DNA of 61,380 bases from Nitrosomonadales bacterium (GTDB lineage: Bacteria; Pseudomonadota; Gammaproteobacteria; Burkholderiales; Gallionellaceae), in the NCBI GenBank assembly GCA_016213335.1, contig JACRAQ010000065.1:1-61380 (forward strand), in the 5' to 3' direction. A program made the translations under genes and the position numbers. Positions 44,955 through 60,934 of this stretch are shown one piece after another. The notes under the pieces are model-generated. The model was not told where the DNA came from. It searched no databases and saw nothing but the letters and a program-made list of their open reading frames with translations. Positions within the stretch are counted from its first letter, which is position 1. Every line of letters starts with the position of its first letter.

Positions 44955-46709
44955 ATGCAAGACAAATACAAGTTTCTCATGATAGGCGCTCTTTCGGCGA
45001 GCTGTTTGGTAATTGGAGCTGCCAACGCCGCAGACAAAGAGGTAATTCCGGGGTGGCAGAACGCGGATCACTCACCGAAGGATGCGCCGCTCCATGACCC
45101 GATGATTCTATACTCGTCCGGCGGGGTGGATGGCAAGCTGGCGGTCATTGGTATTCCCAGCTTCAAGACCTATCGTCATATAGACTGCGGCGTTGATACG
45201 CACGAAGTTGTACTTGGCGGTTTACCGGCCGGTAACAAGAACGGGACGCCGGATGGCAAGTATGCCTATCTTAACGACAAGGGCGCCAACACCATCTGCG
45301 AAATCAATTTGCAGACCGGTTTTCTGGAAAGGATTATCGCGCTGCCGTTCCCGTTCGGGGTACACCATATCGCGTTGAGCAAAGACGGCAAGACACTGTT
45401 TGGAACAGGCGAGTACACTGGCAAGATGTCCAAGACCGACATCGCTACTGGTAAAACAGAAGTGATTGATTGGGGCCCCTCTCCCAGTGCTCCGGACTAC
45501 ATAGATGCCGGTAAAGATGGGAAGTACGTTTTCTCGAACAACTATTACCACTCCACAGTGGGCGTGTTTTCCACCAGCCCCTTCAAGCTGGTCAAGGAAA
45601 TTCCGGTAGGCAAGAACCCACACGGCACGGACGTTATTCCGGAGGGTACCATGGTGCTGGTGAGCGACAAACTGTCGGCGACCATGACTGTCATTGACGC
45701 CGAAAAACTGGCGGTAAAGAAGGTCATTCCGACTTGCGCGGGCCCGCTCCACTCGGTAATGGACGTGTACAACAAGGATGGCGGTTCCTACCGGGCCGGA
45801 ATAGACAAGCCGGAGGGGTTGACTTCCAAGTACGCTTACGAGAGCTGCTTCGTGGCGGATGCCAACGTGAAGATAGACCTCAAAAAGCTTGAGGTGGTGG
45901 ACGAGATTCCTACCCACTATCGCACAGGTCATATCTCCATCAGCGCGGACAACTCCTACGTGATGGCGTTGAACAAGTTTTCGACCGGACTGTTCAGCCC
46001 GACCGGCATCATCTATCCGGTTAACTTCGAGATGTGGGATGCGCGCGAAAAGAGCCCGACTTATGGCAAGACCTTGAAAATCATGCCGGTGGACGGTGAG
46101 CCGCATAATGCCAAGAGCCTGATGTCCTACCTGATCAAGGACTGGACCAAGGGTGAAGCGGAAAGAGGCGGGCTGTTAAAAGCTGGTATGACGCAGTTGC
46201 TCGACCCTGCACACAGGGCCAAAGCAAAAAGGTATTTTATTCCCAAGGAAACCACATCACCTGGCATCAAAGTGGTTGATGGCGTCAAGGAAATCCACGT
46301 CAAGGCCTTCAGTTATGGTTACATTCCCCGTCAGATGAGGGTGAACAAGGGCGATAAGGTAAGAATATTTGCCACCAACATTGACAAGGCGGCAGGTATT
46401 ACCAAGAACCCGGATGTCACCATGGGCTTGACCATCTACGGGCCTTACGGCTTGAGAACCAATATGGATCTTCCGCGCGGAGTGACCGCTGTGCATGAGT
46501 TTACCGCTGATATTGCAGGCGAATATGAAATCTTCTGCACCCACTTCTGCGGGCCGCTCCACTTGGAAATGAGAGCGACATTCTTTGTTGACGATCCCAA
46601 GAAGGGGAATTCCAACCTTCTCACCGGCGAATACGCTGAGGCGCAAAAGCTTCCTGGCTTGGTAGAAGAGGGTCAGGTCACGATTGCGGAACAGGTGAAG
46701 GGTCTGTAA
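44955..46709 (+). CDS. Nitrous-oxide-reductase-like periplasmic cuproprotein, divergent
   Basis: This 584-residue protein has a Sec-type signal peptide (cleavage after ANA, about residue 25), a seven-bladed propeller and a C-terminal cupredoxin domain: the NosZ architecture. From memory of NosZ, CuZ-type histidines appear at H83 (DTHEV), H137/138 (GVHHIA), H223 (NPHG), H266 (GPLHS), H326 (TGHIS) and H384 (GEPHN). However, the first ligand pair, HH in NosZ, is H-E here. The CuA motif C528-x3-C532-x3-H536-x2-M539 is intact, but the upstream CuA histidine position (DVTHGF in NosZ) reads DVTMGL (M490). It may not reduce N2O. GGGGAGG precedes the ATG; a cytochrome c follows. Standard nos accessory genes are absent. 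Confidence 0.75.
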   Translation: MQDKYKFLMIGALSASCLVIGAANAADKEVIPGWQNADHSPKDAPLHDPMILYSSGGVDGKLAVIGIPSFKTYRHIDCGVDTHEVVLGGLPAGNKNGTPDGKYAYLNDKGANTICEINLQTGFLERIIALPFPFGVHHIALSKDGKTLFGTGEYTGKMSKTDIATGKTEVIDWGPSPSAPDYIDAGKDGKYVFSNNYYHSTVGVFSTSPFKLVKEIPVGKNPHGTDVIPEGTMVLVSDKLSATMTVIDAEKLAVKKVIPTCAGPLHSVMDVYNKDGGSYRAGIDKPEGLTSKYAYESCFVADANVKIDLKKLEVVDEIPTHYRTGHISISADNSYVMALNKFSTGLFSPTGIIYPVNFEMWDAREKSPTYGKTLKIMPVDGEPHNAKSLMSYLIKDWTKGEAERGGLLKAGMTQLLDPAHRAKAKRYFIPKETTSPGIKVVDGVKEIHVKAFSYGYIPRQMRVNKGDKVRIFATNIDKAAGITKNPDVTMGLTIYGPYGLRTNMDLPRGVTAVHEFTADIAGEYEIFCTHFCGPLHLEMRATFFVDDPKKGNSNLLTGEYAEAQKLPGLVEEGQVTIAEQVKGL

Positions 46710-46747
46710 TTTAAATTTACCCTTACGCACAGTGCGAAAATAAACCA

Positions 46748-46768
46748 GCTCCCCCTGCGGGGGGGAGC
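46748..46768 (+). terminator. GC-rich hairpin between NosZ-like and cytochrome c genes
   Basis: A perfect 8-bp stem, GCTCCCCC (46748-46755) with GGGGGAGC (46761-46768), loop TGCGG, has no T-run. It sits 20 bases before the cytochrome c start. It may protect the upstream mRNA 3' end or attenuate, rather than terminate fully. Confidence 0.45.
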
Positions 46769-46788
46769 GACCAACAGGGAGGTTCAAA

Positions 46789-47739
46789 ATGAAGAATGGC
46801 AAATTGAAGGCGTGCCTGATTGCGATTACGGGTCTGGGCATTATGTGGGCGAGCTCGTCGGCGGTGGCCGCAGTGGAAAAACGCTGCACAGCCGGTGGCG
46901 TGAAAGTGGAGTGCCCTACCCAGAGTGATGCAGACGTAAAAAAGGCGGCGGAAGCGTACGGTAAGGAAGCAGAAGATTTCTCGGAAGGCAAAGGAGGCAG
47001 CACCTACGGCATCGCCCCATTTGACTACCTGACGGGGGTAGGCAAGCGCGCCAACTCCGACACCAAGACCTATAAGACCGATAGCGGTTACGGTGAGGCG
47101 AAAGGTTCCTACAAGACAGAACTGTGGGATCGCGTAAAGAAGCCGGGTGTCACCAACGAGGAAACATACAATCAATGGACGAACAACTGGTCCCCCAAGT
47201 TTGATACGACACTGGTTGCGGGCGCTGACCCAACACAAGGGAAGCAATGGTATTACTCTTACTGCATCGCCTGCCACGGGTGGTTGTTGCATGGCGATGG
47301 CCCCAGCGCTGCCGAGTTGAACCCGCGCCCCAGAACCTTGACGAGGGGCGACTACATGCAGAAGAAAACCAACCTTGAGCTGTTTACGATAATCAAGGGC
47401 GGCGGTGAGGCAGTTTCGCTTTCTTCATCCATGCCGGGCTGGGGAAATCTGCTGCAGGATCAGGACATCTGGAACGTGGTCGCTTTTATTCGGGCGATGC
47501 AGGATGTGCCGCCACCGAAGAGCGTAGCCGAATATCTTAATCCCAAGTCCACCTTCAAGCCTAACAAGGGTGACGTGGATGCGCTCAATGCCGCGACCAA
47601 TAAAGATTTCAAGGAAGCGAACGAGCTGATGGAATCGGATATGGCTGGACGCGGTGGCCCGGAACTCGTGGGTGGAGGTTACGTTGAAGGCGGCAGCAGG
47701 AAGAAGCCGAACGAGATTACCCTGAAGGTCGGCAAATAA
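46789..47739 (+). CDS. Exported monohaem cytochrome c paired with the NosZ-like protein
   Basis: This 316-residue protein has a signal peptide (to about residue 27, AVAA) and a long N-terminal region (about 30-150) I cannot assign. A cytochrome c domain follows, with YCIACHGWLLHGDGPSA (haem motif), a Met ligand in SSSMPGWGNLL, and QDIWNVVAFIRAMQD. A charged C-terminal tail follows. Its position 79 bases after the NosZ-like gene, on the same strand, suggests it is the electron donor or partner of that enzyme. The domain resembles cytochrome c of cbb3/nitrite- or nitric-oxide-type chains. AGGGAGG precedes the ATG. Confidence 0.85.
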   Translation: MKNGKLKACLIAITGLGIMWASSSAVAAVEKRCTAGGVKVECPTQSDADVKKAAEAYGKEAEDFSEGKGGSTYGIAPFDYLTGVGKRANSDTKTYKTDSGYGEAKGSYKTELWDRVKKPGVTNEETYNQWTNNWSPKFDTTLVAGADPTQGKQWYYSYCIACHGWLLHGDGPSAAELNPRPRTLTRGDYMQKKTNLELFTIIKGGGEAVSLSSSMPGWGNLLQDQDIWNVVAFIRAMQDVPPPKSVAEYLNPKSTFKPNKGDVDALNAATNKDFKEANELMESDMAGRGGPELVGGGYVEGGSRKKPNEITLKVGK

Positions 47740-47798
47740 AAAAAGCCTAGCGCAGGCAAGTTGGCCTCATCAGGCCAGCGGTAACAGGCAGTTCGAGC

Positions 47799-47836
47799 GA
47801 GGTATGTCCAAGGGATGAAATCCATGGATATACCTC
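47799..47836. terminator. Inverted repeat downstream of the cytochrome c gene
   Basis: GAGGTATGTCCA (47799-47810) and TGGATATACCTC (47825-47836) form a 12-bp stem with one G-T pair and a 14-base loop. TCTCGTTTTA follows, a weak T-tract. A terminator is likely; an operator for the stress-protein gene 120 bases downstream is the alternative. Confidence 0.45.
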
Positions 47837-47956
47837 TCTCGTTTTACGGGTGCAGAAAATTTCCCCTCTGTGCTAAGCTCTACCAGACGTATTTGCCGAA
47901 TGGCTGGCACCAGCCCATTCCGGCGCCCACAAGATTAAAGCTATAGAGATCGCGCC

Positions 47957-49729
47957 ATGACATCCTACGCTACTCAGGCAATTGCCAGAGAGATGCCCAC
48001 GCAAAAACTTGATACCCACCTGCACCAGCGCATTTTGCTTGCGCTGGATTCTTCCGATCACGCCAATACCGCCATGGAAATTGCGGCGGATCTTGCCGGG
48101 TTGACAGATGGCGCGGCGATTACCGGCTCCCACGTTTATGCCGCCAAGCTGCACGACATGCGCTTCCGCCAGATGGAGGGCGGGCTGCCGGAACAGTTCA
48201 GGGAGGAGCAGGAACTGGAGCGCCAGCGGGATGTGCACGATGACCTGATCACCCGAGGTTTGTCCATCATTACCGACTCGTATCTTGACCAAGCCGAAGC
48301 CACGTGCGACCGGCTCGGCATCACCTTCAATCGCTGCTCTCTGGAAGGGAAAAATTACCGGGAACTGGCGCGGGAAGCAAACTCGGGCGGCCATGATCTG
48401 CTCGTTATGGGCGCCCTGGGTTTGGGCGCCATACAAGGGAGCAGGCTGGGTACGGTATGCAAGCGGGTTGCCCGGCGTTCGGCGATTGACACCCTTGTCA
48501 TCAAGGAACCCGGACGCCTGCTCAAGGATGGCCCGATTGTCGTGGCAGTGGACGGGTCGGCCAAGTCCTACGGAGGGCTGGTTACCGCACTGGCGCTGGC
48601 CAAGCATTGGCAAGTGCAGGTCAAGGTGGTAGCCGCCTATGATCCTTACTACCACTATGTTGCCTTTAATCGCATAGCCGGCGTCCTGTCGGAGGAAGCC
48701 GGCAAGGTATTCAAGTTCAAGGAGCAGGAAAAGCTGCACGAAGAAATTATTGATTCCGGACTGGCCAGGATATATGACGGCCACCTGGCTGTTGCCCGCT
48801 CCATCGCCAGCGACTTCGGTATTGAAATAGAAACAACGTTGCTGGACGGCAAGCCGCACGATGCCATCGAAAAATTTGTCAAGAAGGTTCAGCCTTCATT
48901 GCTGATCATCGGCAAGCTGGGCATCCATGCAGATGACGAGCTCGATATCGGCGGCAACAGCGAACATTTGCTGCAAAACGTGGATTGCGCCATCTTTCTA
49001 AGCATGCGCGAATACCAGCCGGAAATTGATGTCGTTTCCGAAGTCACCACGTCCTGGACCCGCGAAGCCGAAGCGAAGATGGAGAGAGTGCCGTCTTTTG
49101 TCCGTAACATGGCGCGCATGGCCATCCTGCGCTATGCGCAGGAGCACGGCCACACCGTCATCACCCAGCGCATCGTGGAAGAGGCCACCGCCCTCCTCAT
49201 GCCGCGCCACGCAGAACAAGCCATGGGTGAAATCGTTGCCGCCTACGATGCCGGCGAGCTGAAGCACAAACCGACAGAGGAAGATGCCATGCGCTGGGCG
49301 AGTGAAGCAAGCGCGCTGCTGCGCACCGTCGGCGACCTGTCGGTGCGCGGCAACCTCAGTATGCGCGCCGAGAAAAAAGCCCGCCAGGAAAAAAGCCCCA
49401 CCGTGGAGGCGAGGCATGTCAAGGCATTCCTCGATTCCGGAGAAGCGGAAGCCGAGCCGCAGTCTGCGGACAAAACGCCCGAGCCGCACTGGCACGCTGC
49501 CGCACTGGCACGCTTGATGCGGGTGCCGGAAGGGTTCATGCGCGACAACTGCAAGAGGATGATCGAGGATTACGCGCAGCAGAACGGCCACGCCGAAGTC
49601 ACGCTGGAAGTGGCTGAAGGTGGACTCAAACTGGCCCGCGCAGAAATGGAGGCAAAAATGAAAGACTCCTCCGCTGCACCCAAGCCTGCTTCAGGCGGCT
49701 GCCCGCTTGGCTTCGGAAAAAAACATTAA
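47957..49729 (+). CDS. Tandem universal-stress protein fused to PCP_red-like domains
   Basis: This 590-residue cytoplasmic protein has two USP domains at about 24-185 (ILLALDSSDHANTAMEIA, LLVMGALGLGAIQGSRLGTV) and 192-352 (IVVAVDGSAKSYGG, LLIIGKLGIHADDELDIGGN). Then come two modules resembling the PCP_red domain that ends light-independent protochlorophyllide reductase subunit B: WTREAEAKMERVPSFVRNMA (367-) and WHAAALARLMRVPEGFMRDN (512-). Both are followed by a helix and a HGHT/NGHA turn. The C-terminus is GGCPLGFGKKH; the Cys-Pro pair resembles a haem-regulatory motif (inferred). The next gene carries four more PCP_red-like modules, which implies a shared tetrapyrrole-related task. The combination is rare in my experience. 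Confidence 0.78.
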   Translation: MTSYATQAIAREMPTQKLDTHLHQRILLALDSSDHANTAMEIAADLAGLTDGAAITGSHVYAAKLHDMRFRQMEGGLPEQFREEQELERQRDVHDDLITRGLSIITDSYLDQAEATCDRLGITFNRCSLEGKNYRELAREANSGGHDLLVMGALGLGAIQGSRLGTVCKRVARRSAIDTLVIKEPGRLLKDGPIVVAVDGSAKSYGGLVTALALAKHWQVQVKVVAAYDPYYHYVAFNRIAGVLSEEAGKVFKFKEQEKLHEEIIDSGLARIYDGHLAVARSIASDFGIEIETTLLDGKPHDAIEKFVKKVQPSLLIIGKLGIHADDELDIGGNSEHLLQNVDCAIFLSMREYQPEIDVVSEVTTSWTREAEAKMERVPSFVRNMARMAILRYAQEHGHTVITQRIVEEATALLMPRHAEQAMGEIVAAYDAGELKHKPTEEDAMRWASEASALLRTVGDLSVRGNLSMRAEKKARQEKSPTVEARHVKAFLDSGEAEAEPQSADKTPEPHWHAAALARLMRVPEGFMRDNCKRMIEDYAQQNGHAEVTLEVAEGGLKLARAEMEAKMKDSSAAPKPASGGCPLGFGKKH

Positions 49730-49753
49730 GCGGCGCAGAGCCTGCAATAAAAT

Positions 49754-51847
49754 ATGAGCGCGCCCCGCACGGAAAATCCAGTCGCCAACGACTTGTTTTT
49801 GCTTGCCGTCAACCTGACCAAGCGCTGCAACCTCGCTTGTGCCCATTGCTACATGGATGCGGAAACGCTAAAGCATGGCGGCAAAGACGAACTGGGCACG
49901 GAAGAAGTGCGCGGTTTGCTGGATGAGATTGCGAGCCGCAGTACGGAGACCATGGTCGTGCTGACCGGCGGCGAGCCGCTGATGCGCCCCGATCTGGAAG
50001 AACTGCTGGCCCACGGCACCACTCTTGGACTTTCCATGGTGGTGGGGACCAACGGTGTCGCGCTCAGCGACAAGCGCGTGCGCTCGCTCAAGGCCGCAGG
50101 AGCAATGGGGGCGGGCATCAGTGTTGATTCGCTGGATCCCCAAAAGCACGATGCCTTTCGCGGACTGGAAGGCGCCTGGGAAAAAACCCTGGGGGGTATC
50201 GAGGCGTGCAAGCGCCACGGCCTGCCTTTCCAGATACACTTTTCCGTCACCGAATCCAATGCCGACGAAGTGCCCGCCATGATAGATTTTGCCCGTGCCG
50301 CCGGGGCGCGGGTGCTGAACGTGTTCTTCCTGATCTGTACCGGGCGCGGCGAATCCATGTCGGATATCAGCCCCGTCACCTATGAACGGGTGCTGAACCA
50401 GCTGGTGGAAGCCCAGGAGCGCAGCCAGGATATGCTCATCCGCGCACGCTGCGCGCCCCATTACAAGCGTATCGCCTATCAACGCAACCCGGCTTCCACG
50501 CTCACCCGTGCCGCCGGTTACGAAGGGGGGGGATGCCTGGCCGGCATCCACTATTGCCGCATCACCCCGCAAGGCGGCGTCACGGCCTGCCCCTACATCC
50601 CGGACGAAGGAGGCAATATACGTGCGGATAAATTCTGGGACATCTGGGATCAATCCCCCGCCTTTCAGTCGTTGCGCAATCCGGAGTTGCAGGGAAAGTG
50701 TGGCAATTGCGAGTTCCAGAAACTGTGCGGCGGCTGCCGGGCGCGGCCGCTTGCCATGGGCGGCAGCCTGATGGACACCGATCCCTGGTGCATTCACATG
50801 CCCGATGGGTCAGCCGTCATACAACCGATGGCCGAGCAGCCCAAAAAACTCATCTGGAACAAGGAAGCGGAAAAGCGCTTGTCGCGCGTACCTTCATTCC
50901 TGCGCAAAATGGTCAAGAGCCGTGCGGAAAGTTATGTGCAGGAACTGGGCATGCACGTGGTTACGGAAGAACACCTGGCCACCCTGGCTGCAAAGCGATT
51001 CGGAAGCGGCGGCCCGCCCCGCCCGGAGGGACTACCCGAGAGTGCGGCTCAACGCACCGGACAGGCAGCTGCCGAGGGGCTGCCGTGGAGCGAAGAAGCC
51101 CGCGCACGCCTGGCATCCATGCCATCCTTTTTGCAGGAAGGCGTGCGCGCCGTCGCGGAAGACGTTGCCCGCTCGGAAGGCCGTCTGGAAGTGAACATCA
51201 AGCTGCTGGACCGGCTGGAAGCGGAAAATCAGCCGGGCCGCAGCATGCAGTGGAATGAGGAAGCGGATCGCCTGCTGGCGGAGTTCCTTGCAGACAAATC
51301 CCCCCAGGCGCTGATGTTCATAGCGCCGGCGCTGGATAGCGCCGCTGAACAATTTGCCAAAGCCCGGCGCGCTGCAACGGTGGAACGGGCCGACGCCGAA
51401 GAGGCCGTCGCGCGGCTGACCGGCGGGGTGGAATGGGACGAAGATGCGCTGGCGCGCGTGCTGTCGGCGCCCGATTTCAACCGGGCGGGCATCAAGAAGG
51501 CTGCCGAATTCAATGCGCGCAGGGAAGGCCTGAAGCGCATCACCTCCGCAGATTTGACGCGCTTCCGCAACAAAGCCATGATGCGCGCGGTGCAGCGCAT
51601 GAAGGGTTTCGGCATGACGGAATTGAGCTTTGACGCCTACGAGATCGCCCGCGAGCGCGTCCCGCGCCTGAAGGATAACCCCGAAGCCGACAAGCGCTTC
51701 GACACTATCCGCAATTTTGTTGCGGCGCGGGAAAACCCGGGCGACCTGTTGGGGCGCGATTTGCTCGATCAAATGAAGGCACAGCTCGAGGCCAACAAGC
51801 CGGGCGGTACGACCGCTCACCAGACAAAAGAAAAACCGGCGGTGTAG
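49754..51847 (+). CDS. AhbD/NirJ-like radical SAM protein with four PCP_red-like modules
   Basis: This 697-residue enzyme has the radical-SAM cluster KRCNLACAHCYMDAE (Cys 25, 29, 32), TGGEPLMRPDLEELL, and a SPASM-type C-terminal cluster region with Cys 261, 268, 279, 316, 319, 325, 328 and 346. The closing CGGCRARPLAMGGS then DTDPWC is diagnostic of the haem-modifying NirJ/AhbC/AhbD group (haem d1 or alternative haem synthesis). After about residue 360 come four modules starting W-[NSD]-E-[ED]-A at W368, W445, W500 and W561, resembling PCP_red; NirJ and AhbD normally stop near 400 residues. Upstream and downstream neighbours also point to tetrapyrrole chemistry. The substrate is unknown; a haem-like macrocycle is likely. 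Confidence 0.82.
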   Translation: MSAPRTENPVANDLFLLAVNLTKRCNLACAHCYMDAETLKHGGKDELGTEEVRGLLDEIASRSTETMVVLTGGEPLMRPDLEELLAHGTTLGLSMVVGTNGVALSDKRVRSLKAAGAMGAGISVDSLDPQKHDAFRGLEGAWEKTLGGIEACKRHGLPFQIHFSVTESNADEVPAMIDFARAAGARVLNVFFLICTGRGESMSDISPVTYERVLNQLVEAQERSQDMLIRARCAPHYKRIAYQRNPASTLTRAAGYEGGGCLAGIHYCRITPQGGVTACPYIPDEGGNIRADKFWDIWDQSPAFQSLRNPELQGKCGNCEFQKLCGGCRARPLAMGGSLMDTDPWCIHMPDGSAVIQPMAEQPKKLIWNKEAEKRLSRVPSFLRKMVKSRAESYVQELGMHVVTEEHLATLAAKRFGSGGPPRPEGLPESAAQRTGQAAAEGLPWSEEARARLASMPSFLQEGVRAVAEDVARSEGRLEVNIKLLDRLEAENQPGRSMQWNEEADRLLAEFLADKSPQALMFIAPALDSAAEQFAKARRAATVERADAEEAVARLTGGVEWDEDALARVLSAPDFNRAGIKKAAEFNARREGLKRITSADLTRFRNKAMMRAVQRMKGFGMTELSFDAYEIARERVPRLKDNPEADKRFDTIRNFVAARENPGDLLGRDLLDQMKAQLEANKPGGTTAHQTKEKPAV

Positions 51848-51851
51848 AGAA

Positions 51852-53297
51852 ATGGAACAGCGGGACGTACTGATCATCGGTGGCGGAATCACGGGGCTCG
51901 CATCTGCCTGGTGGCTGGCGCGCGGCGGGCTGTCGGTCGAGGTCTGGGAAGCAAACGAGCGAGCAGGCGGCAAGATCATGAGCACCCGGCAGGATGGCTA
52001 TCTCACGGAGCGTGCCGCGTCCATGGTGCTGAACTTCCGCCCCGAAGTTGCGGAGCTGGTGCGCGAAGCCGGGCTGGAACCGGCAAAGACCAGCCGCCTG
52101 CCTGCCGCCGAAGCGCGCCGTTACCTGCTGCACCAAAGCAGCCTGAAGGCGTTGCCCATGCGCATGGGCGCGATGATGGCCTCGCCGCTATGGAGCTTGC
52201 GCGGAAAGATGCGCCTGCTGGCGGAACCCTTCATTTTTTCCAGCGGGCGGCCCGACGAAACAGTCAGCGAATTTATCACCCGCCGCCTCGGCCGCGAGGT
52301 TCTGGAAAAGGCCATCGAGCCGTTTATTGCCGGCACGCTGGCGGCAGACCCGGACAGGACTTCCGCCGCCGCCGCGTTACCGCGCCTCACCGCGCTGGAG
52401 CAGCGCTACGGCAGCTTGGCTGCCGGGGTAATGGTGAACCGCATCCTGCGCCGCCGCACGGCCTGCACCACCGATACCTTTTCTTTCCGTTGCGGTATGG
52501 GTACGCTGGTGGAGAGCCTTGCGAGAACGCCCGGCATTACCGTGCGCACCGGCTATTCTGCCGACGAACTGGCCCGCGAGCCTGATGGCGGCTGGCGGGC
52601 CGCGGCAACGACGCCGCAAGGGCGGCAAGTTCTGTCCGCGCGCCACGTGATCGTGGCGACTCCCGCGCCTGCTGCTGCCGCACTGGTGGCGCATGTGGAT
52701 GGCGAGCTGGCGGAGCTATTGCGCGGGATCAGTTACGCTGCCGTAACCGTGGTACATGCGGGCTTGGCCCGCGATGCAGTGGGGCACCCGCTGGACGGTA
52801 CCGGATTCCTGGCGCCACGGGGAGAAAGTGCGATATTGACAGGCAACCTGTGGATGAGCACCTTGTTTCCGGATCGCGCGCCCCCGAGGAAAGTCCTGCT
52901 TACTTCGTACCTTGGCGGGGTGCGTGCCCCTCAAGTAGCGGATTGGAGCGACGAGCGCCTCGCGGACGAAACCATCGGGGCATTGCGCCCGTTGCTGGAT
53001 ATAACAGCCGATCCGGAGATGATACGCATAGACCGGCACAGCGAAGCCTTGCCGGTTTACCACGGCGCCTATCAGGCGCGCATGCAGGCCATTACCGCCC
53101 GCTTGAAACAGGCTTCCGGGCTACATCTTGAGGCGAACTACCGGGGCGGGGTGTCGGTGCGGGACCGCCTCGCCCGCAGCCATGCCGTGGCGAACCAGAT
53201 TCTGGCGGCGCAGCAATGGCCATCCGTCGAGCGGAAGCGGTGCGTAGTTTCCGGGAATTCAGACGGGGTAGTTGCGCAACCCGGTGTTATCTATTGA
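51852..53297 (+). CDS. Protoporphyrinogen/coproporphyrinogen oxidase-like flavoprotein
   Basis: This 481-residue FAD enzyme has the dinucleotide loop IIGGGITGLASAWWLARGG, the conserved VEVWEANERAGGKIMSTRQD, then ITRRLGREVLEKAIEPFIAGT and AALPRLTALEQRYGSLAAGV. This pattern matches the oxygen-dependent HemG/Bacillus HemY-type oxidase that aromatises (copro/proto)porphyrinogen. AMINE-oxidase-like C-terminal motif LEANYRGGVSVRDRLARS is present. The start is four bases after the radical SAM stop, so they are co-translated. Placed with the PCP_red-fused proteins, it suggests a dedicated tetrapyrrole module rather than general haem synthesis, whose genes are elsewhere (hemC-D). Confidence 0.85.
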   Translation: MEQRDVLIIGGGITGLASAWWLARGGLSVEVWEANERAGGKIMSTRQDGYLTERAASMVLNFRPEVAELVREAGLEPAKTSRLPAAEARRYLLHQSSLKALPMRMGAMMASPLWSLRGKMRLLAEPFIFSSGRPDETVSEFITRRLGREVLEKAIEPFIAGTLAADPDRTSAAAALPRLTALEQRYGSLAAGVMVNRILRRRTACTTDTFSFRCGMGTLVESLARTPGITVRTGYSADELAREPDGGWRAAATTPQGRQVLSARHVIVATPAPAAAALVAHVDGELAELLRGISYAAVTVVHAGLARDAVGHPLDGTGFLAPRGESAILTGNLWMSTLFPDRAPPRKVLLTSYLGGVRAPQVADWSDERLADETIGALRPLLDITADPEMIRIDRHSEALPVYHGAYQARMQAITARLKQASGLHLEANYRGGVSVRDRLARSHAVANQILAAQQWPSVERKRCVVSGNSDGVVAQPGVIY

Positions 53298-53812: not shown

Positions 53813-55750
53813 ATGGGTCGCCGTTTCAAAGAAGAAATTCAATATCTTCCGCAAGCAATCCATTGGGCAGCGGCTCAAGAAGTTAAATTGCTGCAGCGTG
53901 CTTTATTGAATGCATCATCACGGCCTCTTTTTGCGATTGGATCCGGAGGCTCTTTCACAGCTGCGACTTTTGCTGCCTCGTGCAACGAGAAGCGGTTTGG
54001 CCAGTTATCCCGAGCCGTTACCCCCCTAGAATACAAAGAAACTGGCGGCGTGGTTCGAGATGCAGCCGTACTAATGCTTTCTGCTGAAGGCAAAAACAAA
54101 GACATCCTCTCGGCAGCCTGGAGCACACTTGTTTATGAACAAGTCGCACTCGCGCTAACTCTGAAGCAATACACGCCACTAGCCTCATTTGCAGCCTCCT
54201 CCGGGTCTATGAGTGTTTTAGCATATGACATGCCGTGGAACAAAGATGGCTACCTCGCTACGAACAGCCTCGTTGCCATGATTATTCTTCTGGCAAAAGC
54301 ATATTGCCGAGACCCGGATAAAGATTTCGTATCGCTGCTAAGCCATATATCCTTGGACTGGTTAGCCCATCGACGTAAAGTAATCTCCGAAACCGTCCGT
54401 GAGTACGAGGTCGGAACACAAGTCTTGGTGTTATTCGGCGGCACCAGCCGCCCGACAGCGATAGACGTAGAATCAAAATTTGCCGAAGCTGCGCTAGGAA
54501 CGTGCCAACTCGCTGACTATCGACAGTTTGCTCACGGCAGGCATTTGCAGCTTAGCTACGCGAAAAAGGCCATCGTTATCGCGTTCGTCAGCAGTGCAGA
54601 CCAAGCGCTTGCAGAAGCTACGCTTGCGTTAATACCCGATCATATTCGCAAGCTTACCTTGGATGTCCCCACGAATGATGCCGTTGCGGTGGTGCAGGGG
54701 GTTATTGACGCCATACTCATAATCGACGTAGTGGCTGACATCCTGGGTATCGATCCTGGCCAGCCTGAAGTGCCGGACTACTGTAGGCTCATTCACCAAC
54801 TCGACCCCAATGCCTTCCTGAAGGAGCCGCAGTCATCTGTGCCGGTGCCTGTCAGACGTAAGTTGAAGCGGGCGGCGGCCGATGAGGCAGCAATAACTCG
54901 GTTTTCCACTGCATATGGGGAGTTTTCAAAAAAGCTGACTTGCGCCCACATTAAGGCCTTGGTGTGCGACTTTGACGGAACATTCTGCGAAACCGACAGG
55001 CGATGGGACGGACTGGACGACTTACTTTCAGATGAAATCGAACGCATTGCTAGCTATGGGGTTCCCATTGTTTTTGCAACTGGCCGAGGCGACTCCTTGA
55101 TGGAGGACCTCCGGAAAAAACTTTCGCCAGAAAATTGGCAACAAGTCTACATTGGATACTATAGCGGCTCGTTAATGGCGAGGCTAGACGAAGACCCAGC
55201 GTTTCCTGACGCAGATCCACGGTTCCAGGAGCTATTGTCATGGCTCGAAACAATGGGTGTAAACGCGCTGGTAGAAGCAAAGCCTAAGCTTGATTGTGGA
55301 CAGCTTGGACTTCGCTGTGGGAACCAAGCGTCTCGCCATGAGGCGGTTACCGCCATCAAGTATTGGATTCGGCATAAACAACTTTGGGGCTGGCGAGTCT
55401 ATTGCTCTGGCCACTCCATCGATGTTCTCTCAGATTGGGCTGGAAAGCGTAAGGTTCTGGATTTTGTGGTGAATAAATTCAAGCTCGATGCCGACTCAGA
55501 GATCCTCCGCCTGGGAGACTCTGGGGACTTTGACGGAAATGACTTCGAGCTACTGCGTGATGGGCTTGGGCTCAGTGTTAACTTCGTTTCATCCGACCCG
55601 GCAAGTTGCTGGAACCTTCTCCCGCTCGACCGTCGTGGTGTTGTTGGTACGAAGTATTATCTGTCTCATTTGAGGCAGGCTAATAACAGCGGATGGTTGT
55701 CCATGGCGACGCTTGGCGCTAACAACCAAGGAATTGGAGCCTGCGCGTGA
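53813..55750 (+). CDS. Double-SIS isomerase-like / HAD phosphatase fusion
   Basis: This 645-residue protein has two sugar-isomerase (SIS) modules: LFAIGSGGSFTAATFAAS (about 38-56) and a second with VLFGGTSRPTAIDVESKFAE then HGRHLQL (about 205-247). The second resembles the isomerase half of GlmS (glucosamine-6-phosphate synthase) without the glutaminase. A HAD domain follows (about 375-620), with catalytic VCDFDGTFCE (386-), FATGRGDS (421-) and GDSGDFDGND (568-577), close to Cof/sucrose-phosphatase-type HADs. Fusion suggests isomerisation and dephosphorylation of one sugar phosphate. It overlaps the next gene by four bases. The substrate is unknown. The ATG's ribosome-binding site (AGGAAAG) is about 14 bases away, further than usual. 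Confidence 0.75.
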   Translation: MGRRFKEEIQYLPQAIHWAAAQEVKLLQRALLNASSRPLFAIGSGGSFTAATFAASCNEKRFGQLSRAVTPLEYKETGGVVRDAAVLMLSAEGKNKDILSAAWSTLVYEQVALALTLKQYTPLASFAASSGSMSVLAYDMPWNKDGYLATNSLVAMIILLAKAYCRDPDKDFVSLLSHISLDWLAHRRKVISETVREYEVGTQVLVLFGGTSRPTAIDVESKFAEAALGTCQLADYRQFAHGRHLQLSYAKKAIVIAFVSSADQALAEATLALIPDHIRKLTLDVPTNDAVAVVQGVIDAILIIDVVADILGIDPGQPEVPDYCRLIHQLDPNAFLKEPQSSVPVPVRRKLKRAAADEAAITRFSTAYGEFSKKLTCAHIKALVCDFDGTFCETDRRWDGLDDLLSDEIERIASYGVPIVFATGRGDSLMEDLRKKLSPENWQQVYIGYYSGSLMARLDEDPAFPDADPRFQELLSWLETMGVNALVEAKPKLDCGQLGLRCGNQASRHEAVTAIKYWIRHKQLWGWRVYCSGHSIDVLSDWAGKRKVLDFVVNKFKLDADSEILRLGDSGDFDGNDFELLRDGLGLSVNFVSSDPASCWNLLPLDRRGVVGTKYYLSHLRQANNSGWLSMATLGANNQGIGACA

Positions 55751-56889
55751 GGCGAGAACTAGCGATCAGTCTCATTTCAGATCTCATGGAATGGGACGAC
55801 AGCGAGGCGACTACAGAATACGCCTGGCTCAAGCTTATGGTTGATTACAAATTTGACCGCTACCAAGGATATGGCCCTGGGATTCACTTCTACGTTCGCT
55901 TGATCAGCTGGCTTGCTCAATTCAAAGACGTTGCTGCGCGGCGTACAGCTTACCGCTACTTGCGCAAACACTTGGTGTTTATTGGCCAGCCGGAGTTGTA
56001 CCAACTGATCAAGCTCGCAATGCCGGAAATGGAGAAAGATGCTAGGCGAATCGTCGCAAATCGTCACGGCATTGCTTATTACGAGACGTGGGCAAATAAA
56101 AAAGCTCAGAAAGACCTCAGGCTCATGTCATTGCGTACTTTGTACGTGGGCCTTAGCGACGGTGCTCGGATTGATGTTTTCAGGCGGTACAACGAAGGCT
56201 TGCTCACAAACGAACAGGTAATAGCTTCAAGTGAAATATCTGATGACAAGTGGCAAAGCTTGGGTAATAAGCTTGCCGCTCGGCTCGAGCAGAGCGGATT
56301 TCCGGACGCGGAGCAGAAGTTCGAGCGAGTTTGCTTGGTCGATGACTTCACCGGCTCGGGGACCACTTTGATCCGCTACGATGATGCCAAAACTACTTGG
56401 GACGGCAAAATCTTCAAATTCTGCAGCCAAGCCGAAAATCACGGAAAAATGAGGCCGGAACTTGCTGACCAATGCCACATTCAAGTTCACCACTACTTGG
56501 CATCAACTAAGGCAAGGGACGCGGTCGAGGATGCTCTGCCAAAGCTTCAAGAGACGATGCCTCGATTTAGCTGCAAAGCATCTTATTCTTGGGTATTCAG
56601 CGCCGAACCCGATGTTGTCATGGGGCCTGCCTCGGATGCAGAGTTATTGGCCTGGATCAATGGCCACTACGACCCAAGCATCCAGACTTCGCATAACTGT
56701 GTAGACGGCAAGTCTATTGCTTTGGGATACAAGCAATGTGGCTTGCCTATCGTGCTCGAGCACAATACCCCAAATAACTCGATCGCTCTGATATGGGCGG
56801 AGTCTAGGCCAGATAGCAAGAGCCCGCATATCATGCGTCCCTTATTTCCTCGAACTGATCGACATATCGACAATGGACAATCCGTTTAA
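55747..56889 (+). CDS. Phosphoribosyltransferase-like protein (PRTase-CE type)
   Basis: This 380-residue protein contains a type I phosphoribosyltransferase PRPP loop, VCLVDDFTGSGTTLIRYD (195-211). It has an unusually long helical N-terminus (about 1-130) and a C-terminal part with LPIVLEHNTPNNSIALIWAE and MRPLFPRTDR. This matches my recollection of the conflict-associated PRTase-CE family described by Aravind and colleagues, not the standard purine or pyrimidine salvage enzymes, which are about 200 residues. It probably transfers ribose-phosphate to or from a base or a nucleic acid. GTG start overlaps the SIS-HAD stop. The next gene, a P-loop ATPase, overlaps it by 17 bases. Confidence 0.7.
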   Translation: MRRELAISLISDLMEWDDSEATTEYAWLKLMVDYKFDRYQGYGPGIHFYVRLISWLAQFKDVAARRTAYRYLRKHLVFIGQPELYQLIKLAMPEMEKDARRIVANRHGIAYYETWANKKAQKDLRLMSLRTLYVGLSDGARIDVFRRYNEGLLTNEQVIASSEISDDKWQSLGNKLAARLEQSGFPDAEQKFERVCLVDDFTGSGTTLIRYDDAKTTWDGKIFKFCSQAENHGKMRPELADQCHIQVHHYLASTKARDAVEDALPKLQETMPRFSCKASYSWVFSAEPDVVMGPASDAELLAWINGHYDPSIQTSHNCVDGKSIALGYKQCGLPIVLEHNTPNNSIALIWAESRPDSKSPHIMRPLFPRTDRHIDNGQSV

Positions 56890-58810
56890 AAAGCGTGCAA
56901 CAGAGTTCATTGAAGAACCGCTCGCACTTCTCTCCCTGCTGAGTGCGGAGCCAATTCGGGCATTTTTCGACAAGGGAGCTGCGACGTGCTTTGACCGCCT
57001 TACATTGGTTATTGGCACACCAGGAAGTGGGAAAACAACGATTGCTAGACTGCTGGAGCTTGACACGTTGGTCGAGGTTATACGATTAGCCAACAACAAG
57101 GATAAAGATGGCCGGCAGCTTGCGATGTCGCTTTCCGAATACAATATTTTAGTAAATAACCTGCCGGCTTATCTGGCACACCGAGTTCCGTGCGTCTCGA
57201 ATTTACGCAGCATCTGGGAGCTTCCGTATTCAGAGCGCACAAAGAGTGGCTTGCTGCGTACGTTAATCCAAGTCAAAGCCTGCTTGGGGTGGTTGCGCAA
57301 GCTTGAACGACTAAAAGTCGATTTGCGGGCTGTGAAGATGAACTTTAAGCCGGGCTCCGAGGCAAATGAAACATTACTTAAGGCAGCTGACACTTTGGTG
57401 CTTAGAGAACATGCACGGCAGGCCGAAGAAGACGTTCTGCGAATTATTACCTCGTTGGTCCCTCCAAAGGAGAGTGGCCTGGAAAATTCCGCTGCAAACT
57501 TGCCATATATGCTCTTCGATTCTATCGAATCAATCACCGTTCCATCAATTCCTAATGTTGCGGATGAGTCTTTCACGCTTCGCCCCATGGTTATTCTTGA
57601 TGACGCACATGAACTTCACAGTAGACAGTTTGAAGATGTTCAGAACTGGCTATTAAACAGGGAGTGGTCCACGTCTCGGTGGATTATTACCCGTGTTGAT
57701 GCCATAGGTACAACCGACCTCCGTAAAGCAATTAGCGATATAGAGGACGAAGTAATTGCCCCAGGAAGCACGACCGGGCGGGACCGAACAATTAAATTGC
57801 TGCAGGGCGAGAGGCGGGATCGTGCCCAGTTCAGGAGGGTCGCACGAGACTTAAGTCGTCGATACTTTAGCCAGATGCCCACCTTCCAAAGGCGCGGCAT
57901 TGATAAATTAGAAGACCGCCTATCCGGCAATAACATAGGTATTTCCAAGGCAGATATCCAGATTTTGGAGGAGGAGAACGTTGCGCTAGTTCAAGAGTGT
58001 CGCTTTTCCAAAGAAGCGGTAGAAGTACTAGCTAGGTTGGTGCCGGAGAATATTTCAAAGGAAGAAAAGCTGGTGGTTCTCCATATTCTGCTCCAGCGGG
58101 AGAGGCGAAAGACACCACAAGTTGATCTTTTCGGCGATGAGGGGCAGGCTGAAGGCACTGGCAACGAAGAAGAGGAAAGTCAGGAGGCTATCGACGAGGG
58201 GGCCCGGAAGACCGTTAAGCCGGCAGTAATAGTTGGGGCTGAATTGCAGCTTACGCACCGGTTCAAGCGACCATTTTACTTTTCGTTTGATAGGCTTGCT
58301 GACGCGAGTGGGGACAACATTGAAATTTTTATCAGTTTGGCTGGTGCTTTAGTGGATGAATTGGAGACTCAAGTCCTTCGGAATAAAAAGCCAGAACTTG
58401 ATGCGCGGCAACAGCATACTATTTTAACGCGCAGAGCCGAAGAAATCATGGGCCAATGGGATTTCCCTCATTGTGAGTCCGTGAAAAAGCTGGTGTCCTT
58501 CATCGGTAACCGGTGTATTGCTCGAACCATGGAACGTAACGCACCACTCTCGGATGGTGCCAACGCGTTTGGCATTCCTCAAACTGAGATGGACCAGCTA
58601 GAAGCTTCTGCTCCAGAGCTCGCACAGGTTATTCACTACGCGATTGCCTACAATGCAATTACGTTGAGAGAAAATTATCTTTGCAAAAAACGAAGTTGGT
58701 GCCTGTTTTTGCTTGGTGGAATTCCCATTGTTGCCAACCGGCTAACGCTAGGGCGGGGTGGCTTCTGTGAAGGACACCTTAGGGACTTGAAGGGGAGCAT
58801 TGCCCTGTGA
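56873..58810 (+). CDS. P-loop ATPase, ORC/CDC6- or STAND-like
   Basis: This 645-residue protein has Walker A VIGTPGSGKTTIARLLEL (46-63) and Walker B MVILDDAHELHS (239-250). A sensor-1-like SRWIITRVDA (268-277) follows. Long helical segments occupy the rest (about 300-640), including a Glu-rich stretch (about 410-440). It resembles AAA+ ATPases of the ORC/CDC6 type linked with PRTase-CE proteins in conflict systems (recollection). It probably senses a trigger and controls the neighbouring enzymes. It overlaps the PRTase and the following gene (GTGA), so all are translated together. Confidence 0.72.
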   Translation: MDNPFKKRATEFIEEPLALLSLLSAEPIRAFFDKGAATCFDRLTLVIGTPGSGKTTIARLLELDTLVEVIRLANNKDKDGRQLAMSLSEYNILVNNLPAYLAHRVPCVSNLRSIWELPYSERTKSGLLRTLIQVKACLGWLRKLERLKVDLRAVKMNFKPGSEANETLLKAADTLVLREHARQAEEDVLRIITSLVPPKESGLENSAANLPYMLFDSIESITVPSIPNVADESFTLRPMVILDDAHELHSRQFEDVQNWLLNREWSTSRWIITRVDAIGTTDLRKAISDIEDEVIAPGSTTGRDRTIKLLQGERRDRAQFRRVARDLSRRYFSQMPTFQRRGIDKLEDRLSGNNIGISKADIQILEEENVALVQECRFSKEAVEVLARLVPENISKEEKLVVLHILLQRERRKTPQVDLFGDEGQAEGTGNEEEESQEAIDEGARKTVKPAVIVGAELQLTHRFKRPFYFSFDRLADASGDNIEIFISLAGALVDELETQVLRNKKPELDARQQHTILTRRAEEIMGQWDFPHCESVKKLVSFIGNRCIARTMERNAPLSDGANAFGIPQTEMDQLEASAPELAQVIHYAIAYNAITLRENYLCKKRSWCLFLLGGIPIVANRLTLGRGGFCEGHLRDLKGSIAL

Positions 58811-59889
58811 GTCAGTTTTCCGTCGATACATGTATTGCGCACAGTGGTGCTGACGCATTCGAATTTATTGGGTATCTGAGTGCATCCAAAGCAGTACTGT
58901 TCATTGGTGCAGTTGGGTTAGAACAGGCGTCAATGTATTGCACAACTAGATTTGCTAGCGGGAAAAACGTTTCCTTCAAGTTCTTGGTGGAAAACCGCCC
59001 CTCCGTACCTGCTGTGCTGATTCAGCTTGGGCGGGAGCACGAAACCTATTTGAGAAGCAAAACGTCGAATACAGCTGAATTCATCTCTTTTGAGGTCATT
59101 TCCACGGACGGCGCAACGACGGGTGGCCGCAACGTGATAAACAAAGCTCAGCCGTGGTTCATCGAGAAGAACTATGTCGATGTTGTGATCGACGTTACTG
59201 GGATGTCGAGGGGCGTATTCTTTCCCTTGGTGAAGCTTGCTTGCGAGATGGGGCAAAAATATGGATTCAACGTGCACGTCCTAGCTGCGGCAAACGATAA
59301 TCCGTCTATCAAAATCTGCTCCGAAGCCAGCGACCGCGCCGAATGGATGCATGGTTTCCAAGGGGACATTGAATTCGACCGGAATAGTGATGACCTTAAG
59401 CTATGGGTTCCGCAACTCACACAGAATGCACTTAATCAGGCCGACCTCATGCAAAGGCATATCCAGCCTACACCTGCTGAGGTATGCCCCATTATTCCCT
59501 TTCCGTCTCGCGCTCCCCGTCAGGGGGACGATCTGATGAGCGAGTACGCGGACTTGCTCTTCAACCGGTGGGAGGGCAACCTGCTCAACGTCATGTACGC
59601 TCATGAGTCGGACCCTATCGACGTCTATCGGTCAATCTACCGTATGCATGCGAACCGTGAATTGGTGTTCAACGGCGCAGCTGGTGGGAAAAAGGCCACT
59701 ACTGTCCTTTCCCCAGCCGGATGGCGCCTAGGTAGCGTTGGCATGCTACTTGCCGCAATTGATCTGTCTCTGCCAGTTTTGTACGTTGAGACTGTCGGGT
59801 ATAATCTTGATAGTCCGGTACCGCCATCAGTGACGGTGGCGGATCCTACTTGTCTTTGGCACATCTGGATGGTTGGGCATGTTTATTAG
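58807..59889 (+). CDS. Unrecognised two-domain alpha/beta protein of the island
   Basis: This 360-residue protein is not one I can name. It has two Rossmann-like halves. The first (about 25-165) has strand ASKAVLFIGAVGLE, FKFLVENRPS, and VDVVIDVTGMSRGVFFPLVKL. The second (about 235-345) has LVFNGAAGGKKATTVLSPAG, then LGSVGMLLAAIDLSLPVLYVET. The Gly-rich loop followed by a helix and a strand recalls the T-G-G-T-K loop of CARF nucleotide-sensing domains, but the resemblance is loose. It could bind or make a nucleotide. It overlaps both neighbours, so it is an obligate part of the gene set. Confidence 0.5.
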   Translation: MSQFSVDTCIAHSGADAFEFIGYLSASKAVLFIGAVGLEQASMYCTTRFASGKNVSFKFLVENRPSVPAVLIQLGREHETYLRSKTSNTAEFISFEVISTDGATTGGRNVINKAQPWFIEKNYVDVVIDVTGMSRGVFFPLVKLACEMGQKYGFNVHVLAAANDNPSIKICSEASDRAEWMHGFQGDIEFDRNSDDLKLWVPQLTQNALNQADLMQRHIQPTPAEVCPIIPFPSRAPRQGDDLMSEYADLLFNRWEGNLLNVMYAHESDPIDVYRSIYRMHANRELVFNGAAGGKKATTVLSPAGWRLGSVGMLLAAIDLSLPVLYVETVGYNLDSPVPPSVTVADPTCLWHIWMVGHVY

Positions 59890-60934
59890 AATGAAGCCCG
59901 CACCGCGGAATAGCACTCGTTCATTTGGGCCTCGAGCTGTCGGGTCGGGGCTTATCGCGCTCGATGTAATCCTCGATGACTCGTCGTCTCTTCTCTCCTC
60001 AGCAGTCGGTGGTTCCGCTGGGAACGTGTTGGCTGCGCTGGCCTATCTTGGTTGGCGCAGCGTGCCAGTGTGTGAGCTTGGTAAGGATTCCGCAGGGCAT
60101 CGGGTTCGAGAAGAGTTTCAAAAGCTCAAAGCTGATCTTCGCTTCGTGGTTGAGAGTGATCACGTTTGTACTCCGGTCGTTTATCAGATGCCTGTGAATG
60201 CTCCTGAAACACACAAGTTCAGTTTTCGCTGCCCGCATTGCGGGGAACGTCGTGGATACTTGGCGCCGTCTGACGCTCAATTAGGTGAGCAAGTTTACAA
60301 GGGTGTTCCTACGCCCAGTGTCTATTACTTCGACCGAGTAACTAAAGTCTCACTGGCTTTGGCGGAAAAATACCGTGCTAGAGGAGTCCTGGTGGTGTTT
60401 GAACCTTCTGACGTTCCGACCAACAAAGAAGACTTTCAGCGTGCGATATCTGCTACACACGTTCTCAAATATGCCGATAACCGCTTCGCAGACTTTCCGT
60501 ACGATGTAAGCAACATTTCCCTAGAAATAAAGACAATGGGATCGAAAGGTCTACGGTTCCGCATACCCTCATTGCTGGAGGATTGGGCCTCATTACCCGC
60601 TATCCGCGTTCCTGTTGTGGTTGACACGGCTGGCGCTGGCGATTGGTGCACGGCCGGTCTGTTAGCGTCGCTTTTTGGTGCTGGAACACGCTGGCAATTG
60701 TCCTATAGTGCGGCATATCAGGGGCTACGGTATGGGCAGTCTCTTGCTGCTCTAAACTGCATGTTTGCTGGCGCTAGAGGCATAACGGAGAGCTGGTCAG
60801 CTCGCAAAGTCAAGCGACTAGCGGCTGAGTTGATGGAAAAGTCGGCCACGACGCAACAACCGACTCTCCAGCGACGTAGGAAAGTCAAGACTAAAGTTAA
60901 GCCACTGCTATGCTGCGACCCGCTCGAGGTCTAG
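59879..60934 (+). CDS. PfkB-family (ribokinase-like) sugar or nucleoside kinase
   Basis: This 351-residue protein has GLIALDVILDD, the N-terminal PfkB signature VGGSAGNVLAALAYLGW, and the C-terminal signature VVDTAGAGDWCTAGLLASLF, which holds the catalytic Asp. A short insertion, KFSFRCPHCGERRGYLAPSD, has a CxxC pair that could bind zinc if partnered, unusual for ribokinases. The ATG at 59879 overlaps the previous stop; a second ATG at 59891 is possible. It would phosphorylate a sugar or nucleoside, fitting the SIS-HAD isomerase/phosphatase and the PRTase. The basic C-terminal tail (RRRKVKTKVK) is odd. The last 27 bases overlap the convergent NADAR gene. Confidence 0.78.
   Translation: MFIRMKPAPRNSTRSFGPRAVGSGLIALDVILDDSSSLLSSAVGGSAGNVLAALAYLGWRSVPVCELGKDSAGHRVREEFQKLKADLRFVVESDHVCTPVVYQMPVNAPETHKFSFRCPHCGERRGYLAPSDAQLGEQVYKGVPTPSVYYFDRVTKVSLALAEKYRARGVLVVFEPSDVPTNKEDFQRAISATHVLKYADNRFADFPYDVSNISLEIKTMGSKGLRFRIPSLLEDWASLPAIRVPVVVDTAGAGDWCTAGLLASLFGAGTRWQLSYSAAYQGLRYGQSLAALNCMFAGARGITESWSARKVKRLAAELMEKSATTQQPTLQRRRKVKTKVKPLLCCDPLEV

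Follow-up and report, generated by a model that had tools for sequence, protein, structure and literature searches.

Usp and AhbD-like radical SAM proteins that share PCP_red repeats beside a clade III N2O reductase gene: a candidate tetrapyrrole-processing module

We examined a window of 61,380 nucleotides, which is the whole analysed stretch of contig JACRAQ010000065.1 from a Nitrosomonadales bacterium (assembly GCA_016213335.1). Five genes in this window, all co-oriented, occupy 44955 to 53297, and the coordinates of their open reading frames (ORFs) were checked. In order, they encode a predicted lactonase-type nitrous-oxide (N2O) reductase (L-NosZ), a cytochrome c, a protein with Usp domains and PCP_red repeats (Usp-PCP), a radical S-adenosylmethionine (SAM) protein with PCP_red repeats (rSAM-PCP), and a protoporphyrinogen-oxidase-like protein (PPO; Table 1). 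The last three genes are the module considered here, and they are separated by gaps of 24 bases (Usp-PCP to rSAM-PCP) and 4 bases (rSAM-PCP to PPO). A first-pass annotation of the window had described a co-oriented stress protein, radical SAM protein and PPO-like oxidase, and all three ORFs were found where it had placed them. Residues 152–166 of Usp-PCP carry a nucleotide-binding-type motif, GALGLGAIQGSRLGT. Promoter and terminator scans of the locus region returned no more matches than were obtained in shuffled sequence.

The Pfam profile PCP_red (PF08369, cut-off 32.5) matched Usp-PCP with 100.6 bits and rSAM-PCP with 103 bits; the other Pfam domains at the locus were Usp, Radical_SAM, SPASM and Amino_oxidase. 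We located seven W-x-x-[EDA]-A units, three in Usp-PCP (W367, W447, W512) and four in rSAM-PCP (W368, W445, W500, W561). Taken singly, two repeats in Usp-PCP and three in rSAM-PCP scored above the PF08369 cut-off. The repeats were also scored with a hidden Markov model (HMM) built from 30 BchB tails alone, using 1000 shuffles of each segment. Results showed that no shuffle scored higher than W367, W512, W368 or W445 (0/1000 each), whereas the score was reached by 1/1000 shuffles for W561, 18/1000 for W447 and 43/1000 for W500. Judged by sequence, the seven repeats thus comprise four clear units (W367, W512, W368, W445), one weak unit (W561) and two that are degenerate or marginal (W447, W500). 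The W500 segment is modelled by AlphaFold with the same helix-helix-helix pattern as the other repeats. The top Foldseek match of the rSAM-PCP tail was the nuclear magnetic resonance structure of PCP_red, 2kru (40% identity over 53 columns, E 0.086). RuvBL and histone H2A-H2B chains were matched by the tail only at E above 0.2, and these matches were set aside. The first-pass annotation had counted six PCP_red-like repeats and had named a failure to match PCP_red as grounds for rejecting its reading: the match to PCP_red was borne out by Pfam, the BchB HMM and 2kru, and so were its four radical SAM tryptophans, but it had missed one of the three in the Usp protein.

Repeat number among rSAM-PCP orthologues ranged from one (Mariprofundus, Nitrospirota and marine lineages) to four (the window and its relatives), so a single repeat is the core. 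A profile search of the window genome, which is 92.7% complete, found PCP_red nowhere else and no BchB. We therefore ruled out PCP_red as a mark of photosynthesis here.

Table 1. Positions, within the window, of the five genes and of the motifs and repeats that they encode.
Feature	Position	Strand	Basis
L-NosZ, clade III lactonase-type nitrous-oxide reductase by curated model, 584 residues	44955..46709	+	NF052460; alignment with two orthologues at 70-80%
Monohaem cytochrome c, CIACH motif, signal-like N-terminal stretch	46789..47739	+	PF13442, 43 bits
Usp-PCP: two Usp domains, then PCP_red repeats, 590 residues	47957..49729	+	PF00582, PF08369
PCP_red repeat W367, Usp-PCP	49055..49186	+	PF08369, BchB-tail HMM
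Degenerate PCP_red-like segment W447, Usp-PCP, marginal	49295..49429	+	18/1000 shuffles
PCP_red repeat W512, Usp-PCP	49490..49612	+	PF08369, BchB-tail HMM
rSAM-PCP: AhbD-like radical SAM/SPASM enzyme, C-terminal PCP_red tail, 697 residues	49754..51847	+	PF04055, PF13186, PF08369
CX3CX2C radical SAM cluster motif, residues 25-32	49826..49849	+	Invariant in 25 orthologues
Eight-cysteine SPASM motif, residues 233-346	50450..50791	+	Spacing equals full AhbD motif
PCP_red repeat W368, rSAM-PCP, kept in all orthologues	50855..50977	+	PF08369, BchB-tail HMM
PCP_red repeat W445, rSAM-PCP	51086..51214	+	PF08369, BchB-tail HMM
Degenerate PCP_red-like repeat W500, rSAM-PCP	51251..51433	+	Structure pattern only; 43/1000 shuffles
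PCP_red repeat W561, rSAM-PCP, weak alone	51434..51562	+	PF08369, BchB-tail HMM
PPO: HemY-family FAD protein, protoporphyrinogen (or coproporphyrinogen) oxidase-like, 481 residues	51852..53297	+	TIGR00562, PF01593

Cysteines C25, C29 and C32 of rSAM-PCP form the CX3CX2C cluster motif expected of AhbD, the enzyme that carries out oxidative decarboxylation of coprohaem propionates. Its SPASM region has cysteines at positions 233, 261, 279, 316, 319, 325, 328 and 346, with the spacing C-x27-C-x17-C-x36-C-x2-C-x5-C-x2-C-x17-C. The full AhbD SPASM motif, CX20-33CX17CX36-37CX2CX5CX2CX17-35C, is described for a subset of AhbDs in methanogens and sulfate reducers (PMC10452713). The eight-cysteine motif was present in 24 of 25 members of the rSAM-PCP family and in true AhbD, and in none of the NirJ, NirJ1-like or TIGR04053 rows tested. 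All members of the family share Cys195, which the AhbD row lacks. A tree of 44 sequences, where true AhbD was represented by one full sequence and one fragment, placed the PCP-fused radical SAM proteins in one clade (support 100/94) on the AhbD/TIGR04053 side; the exact sister of this clade is unsure because of long branches. Scores against the NirJ2 model (311–312 bits, cut-off 500) and the NirJ model TIGR04051 (157 bits, cut-off 515) fell below cut-off. A function as NirJ for haem d1 was ruled out because the genome has a true NirJ (650 bits) on contig C63. Searches of a plasmid collection with the radical SAM and L-NosZ queries returned distant homologues only.

The window L-NosZ scored 764 bits against NF052460 (cut-off 700), covered profile positions 1–480 of 480, and has the CuA motif C-x3-C-G-x2-H-x2-M near its C terminus. 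By this curated model the cuproprotein is assigned to the clade III (lactonase-type) N2O reductases, which makes precise the earlier label of ‘NosZ-like’. Clade III has been recognised only recently. The family is attributed to He et al. 2025 (Nature 646:152), as cited in PMC13274427.

A scan of public genomes for L-NosZ, with one genome per species, yielded 31 loci from Gallionellales, other Nitrosomonadales, Burkholderiales, Casimicrobiaceae, Mariprofundus, Sedimenticola, marine Gammaproteobacteria, a deltaproteobacterium and Nitrospirota. The labels of some bins are open to doubt, and the counts are therefore of loci and not of independent events. The order L-NosZ, cytochrome c, Usp-PCP, rSAM-PCP was found in 13 of the 31 loci, Zetaproteobacteria included; that is, the linkage recurs in relatives, its absence having been named beforehand as grounds for rejecting the first-pass reading. 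Eleven of the 13 ordered loci continue into PPO, and the contigs of the remaining two stop short of that point; in a fourteenth locus (L107) the contig ends inside Usp. The zetaproteobacterial loci L123 and L066 are among those in this order, at 62–78% identity and far from the betaproteobacterial majority, and in L119 Usp-PCP lies directly upstream of L-NosZ. The cytochrome c directly after L-NosZ is 60–78% conserved in L-NosZ loci. PCP_red proteins were present in 30 of 32 L-NosZ genomes, and in the loci inspected they were mostly the Usp-PCP/rSAM-PCP pair, even away from L-NosZ. In marine loci without an adjacent L-NosZ, periplasmic-looking proteins flank the module (L139:67-3846, L142:11935-12669). 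Separately, the L-NosZ contigs of L107 (‘Moraniibacteriota’) and L108 (‘Thiothrix’) are 82–83% identical to the betaproteobacterial window, and these two bins are probably contaminated.

Other genes also accompany L-NosZ. A NosF/Gld-type ATPase match was found in all 32 L-NosZ genomes, some at 34–50% identity only, and the module as a stand-in for NosDFY-type ABC machinery was ruled out on this ground. In the window genome a 60% match (G000:C26) lies beside permease, GldG-like and DUF4340 genes. At L119:12304-21636, L126:11683-21618 and L178:184-5208 we saw genes for split cytochrome b6/subunit-IV-like proteins, for two virginiamycin-B-lyase-type propellers and for a NosF/Gld/DUF4340 ABC system. 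In Mariprofundus and a number of further lineages, another conserved block diverges from L-NosZ and encodes lipoprotein-like, CcmH-like and thioredoxin-like proteins (L066:16817-19998, L113:6202-9369, L112:96-3333, L119:1-1828; also L069). Its content suggests that L-NosZ loci have a branch of cytochrome c maturation of their own.

The first-pass annotation had suggested the adjacent cytochrome/NosZ-like pair as a possible target of the module. Linkage to that pair held, but it was not the sole partner, and the tightest genomic partner was an operon on another contig (C86 in the window genome). This operon, m4–m7, encodes a cytochrome with an ethylbenzene-dehydrogenase-type domain (m4), the membrane cytochromes c m5 and m6, and a cytochrome-bd-like subunit (m7). 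The m7 orthologue in L066 scored 60.8 bits against PF01654 (cut-off 26.2), and the window-genome copy is 77% identical to it. The residue that we take to be the equivalent of haem ligand His19 in E. coli cytochrome bd is invariant in 14 sequences. Co-occurrence was assessed in 398 evenly drawn Pseudomonadota genomes, among them the window genome (G000, chosen for the feature). A non-BchB Usp-PCP/rSAM-PCP pair was found in four of the 398 (G000, G303, G523, G291); beyond these, PCP_red matched a fragment in G487, an isolated frame of 62 residues in G340 and, very weakly, G281. The m7 gene was found in exactly the four pair genomes, which belong to four different families, and without G000 the three m7 genomes were again the three pair genomes. 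L-NosZ was present in G000, G303 and G523, whereas G291 had the pair, m7, PPO and canonical NosZ only. The gene right after m4 is Usp-PCP in L068, L119 and L135, and PPO in L097. We concluded that the module belongs to the bd-like/multi-haem-c complex as much as to L-NosZ.

PPO exceeded the protoporphyrinogen oxidase model TIGR00562 (244 bits, cut-off 97.85). Proteins of the HemY and HemJ families oxidise porphyrinogens. The window genome has its own HemJ, on contig C93, so PPO is an extra enzyme of this kind and is unlikely to be the housekeeping one. In locus L117, m4 and a small membrane protein are followed by PPO, and in the marine gammaproteobacterial loci L136–L138 the same two genes are followed by HemJ (108–118 bits, cut-off 34.2); one of these three genomes has a second HemJ. 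The presence of two unrelated oxidase families in the same slot is the best evidence for a tetrapyrrole step in this system.

From the observed domains, motifs, linkage, co-occurrence and HemJ/PPO exchange, we infer a substrate, a product, a target and a role for PCP_red as follows. Our tentative reading, to which we give slightly less than an even chance, is that Usp-PCP, rSAM-PCP and PPO form a module devoted to tetrapyrrole processing (of haem or coprohaem) that serves this electron-transport system. The module would make or finish a haem-type macrocycle for electron transport in which L-NosZ is here the terminal reductase. A HemY-type flavoprotein, replaced by HemJ in some lineages, would supply rSAM-PCP by oxidising a porphyrinogen, possibly coproporphyrinogen. 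The AhbD-like rSAM-PCP would then use a deoxyadenosyl radical to take hydrogen from a propionate side chain of (copro)haem, and its auxiliary clusters would accept the left-over electron. Such a hybrid route would run from oxidation of coproporphyrinogen by the HemY-type protein, through iron insertion, to O2-free side-chain processing by the AhbD-like enzyme. For the Usp protein, a role as nucleotide-binding partner or as regulator is probable, and the PCP_red repeats common to Usp-PCP and rSAM-PCP probably keep these two proteins together or present the macrocycle; docking of the two proteins is a more probable role for the repeats than catalysis. The likely user would be the m4–m7 complex, passing electrons via cytochrome c to L-NosZ. 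It is quite unlikely that the product is a new kind of modified haem, changed for instance at its propionate or vinyl groups, that serves as cofactor of the bd-like complex driving clade III N2O reduction. The earlier suggestion of macrocycle modification gains support from the AhbD eight-cysteine motif, the displacement of PPO by HemJ and the extra PPO, with the intended user revised.

Several observations weigh against this reading. rSAM-PCP scored 311–314 bits against the AhbD model TIGR04545, below its cut-off of 500, and it is a paralogue, a relationship that does not assign its substrate. An unrelated row (L180_Paenib_b) carries the eight-cysteine motif, so the motif alone is no proof of substrate. 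The best solved-structure matches of rSAM-PCP were PqqE and SuiB, and most SPASM enzymes act on peptides. Tetrapyrrole binding by PCP_red is not proven in the literature examined, even for BchB. PPO was not found beside the module in the Nitrospirota loci inspected, and genomes G669 and G674 have L-NosZ without PCP_red. Lastly, G664 and G679 have the pair and L-NosZ with no m7 match; given these exceptions, the opposite one in G291, and several incomplete genomes, either partner may be the true target.

An unlikely explanation, although the one that survives best among the alternatives, is ordinary haem supply. The genes would then combine an anaerobic, AhbD-type bypass with an additional porphyrinogen oxidase as a co-regulated booster, yielding plain haem b for the numerous haems of the cytochrome cluster and no new macrocycle. 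The AhbD-type motif and HemY/HemJ belong to haem b enzymes, and the linked operons encode many c-type haems. However, rSAM-PCP is kept even in relatives that have a true AhbD, such as G676 (524 bits), and many haem-rich bacteria lack the module, the pair being found in only 4/398 sampled genomes. Rather improbable is protein maturation, in which the SPASM enzyme would alter an amino-acid side chain in L-NosZ, the cytochrome or the bd-like subunit, with Usp-PCP as carrier or chaperone. The nearest solved folds are indeed peptide or PQQ maturases, and a substrate could be bound by the additional, invariant Cys195 that AhbD does not have; nevertheless, sequence and cysteine pattern are nearest to AhbD, the eighth cysteine is absent in PqqE, anSME and MftC, and the PPO/HemJ exchange has no place in this scheme. 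We consider it very improbable that L-NosZ itself is the target (for example, in assembly of its copper-sulfur centre) and the bd-like complex merely a co-inherited neighbour: the near-universal PCP_red proteins of L-NosZ genomes (30/32) and direct adjacency in many loci favour this, but G291 combines the pair, m7 and PPO with canonical NosZ only, and NosF/Gld-type ABC genes suited to NosZ assembly are also present. Equally poor prospects attach to sensing or repair, with Usp-PCP as an ATP- and haem/redox-responsive regulator and rSAM-PCP and PPO degrading or repairing damaged haem under nitrosative stress, since the tandem Usp domains with their nucleotide-binding-type motif, the denitrification context and the NirJ of the genome are met by no haem-degradation family among the profile matches of the locus proteins and by an operon position conserved among structural electron-transport genes, not stress genes.

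Two further features of the contig were noted. A HemN-family radical SAM protein (Radical_SAM and HemN_C) is encoded at 39147-40346, about 5 kb upstream of L-NosZ. Downstream of PPO, after a gap of 515 bases, a cassette at 53813-60934 comprises genes for HAD-like, PRTase-CE, ORC-CDC6-like AAA, triple-CARF and PfkB-like kinase proteins, of which the triple-CARF protein is CARF6 of PADLOC (400 bits). This cassette looks like a CARF/PRTase conflict or defence system and not like a part of the module.

The tetrapyrrole-processing reading draws on known families that are combined differently here. AhbD (TIGR04545; PMC10452713) shares the radical SAM core and the eight-cysteine SPASM spacing and is, together with TIGR04053, the nearest named family in the tree; unlike AhbD, rSAM-PCP forms a separate clade, has Cys195 and C-terminal PCP_red repeats, and occurs in a genome with the classical-pathway HemJ. 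NirJ, NirJ1 and AhbC (haem d1 and sirohaem branch) share the superfamily and the denitrification context but lack four AuxI cysteines found in rSAM-PCP. DPOR subunit B (BchB/ChlB; PDB 2kru, 2l09) shares the PCP_red unit by Pfam, BchB-only HMM and fold, whereas here Usp and radical SAM proteins carry the unit in tandem and the genome lacks BchB. PPO resembles HemY/CgoX in passing TIGR00562, and differs as an additional copy beside L-NosZ in a HemJ-bearing genome. A bd-like oxidase/alternative NxrC cluster is described in Nitrospira, Nitrospina and anammox bacteria (PMC6606698). Compared by described gene content alone, that cluster and m4–m7 both have a bd-like subunit, two membrane cytochromes c and an EB_dh-type cytochrome; unlike it, m4–m7 is co-inherited with L-NosZ and the PCP_red module. 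The literature searched, with the primary L-NosZ paper outside that search, held nothing relevant on PCP_red with radical SAM or Usp. Within it, we found no description of the PCP_red-fused AhbD-like clade, of the constancy with which this clade is paired with Usp-PCP, or of its co-inheritance with L-NosZ and the bd-like complex.

For the electron supply and maturation needs of clade III N2O reductase, the module is a concrete candidate for a missing accessory step, a status that rests on its presence in nearly all L-NosZ genomes examined and in exactly those sampled Pseudomonadota that have the bd-like complex. PCP_red, known from chlorophyll synthesis, has here a second context that is not photosynthetic, and it becomes possible to test what an orphan AhbD-like enzyme acts on. 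The module could serve as a genetic mark of working L-NosZ respiration. If our reading of the module is true, then the respiration that consumes N2O, a greenhouse gas, probably needs an unusual haem.

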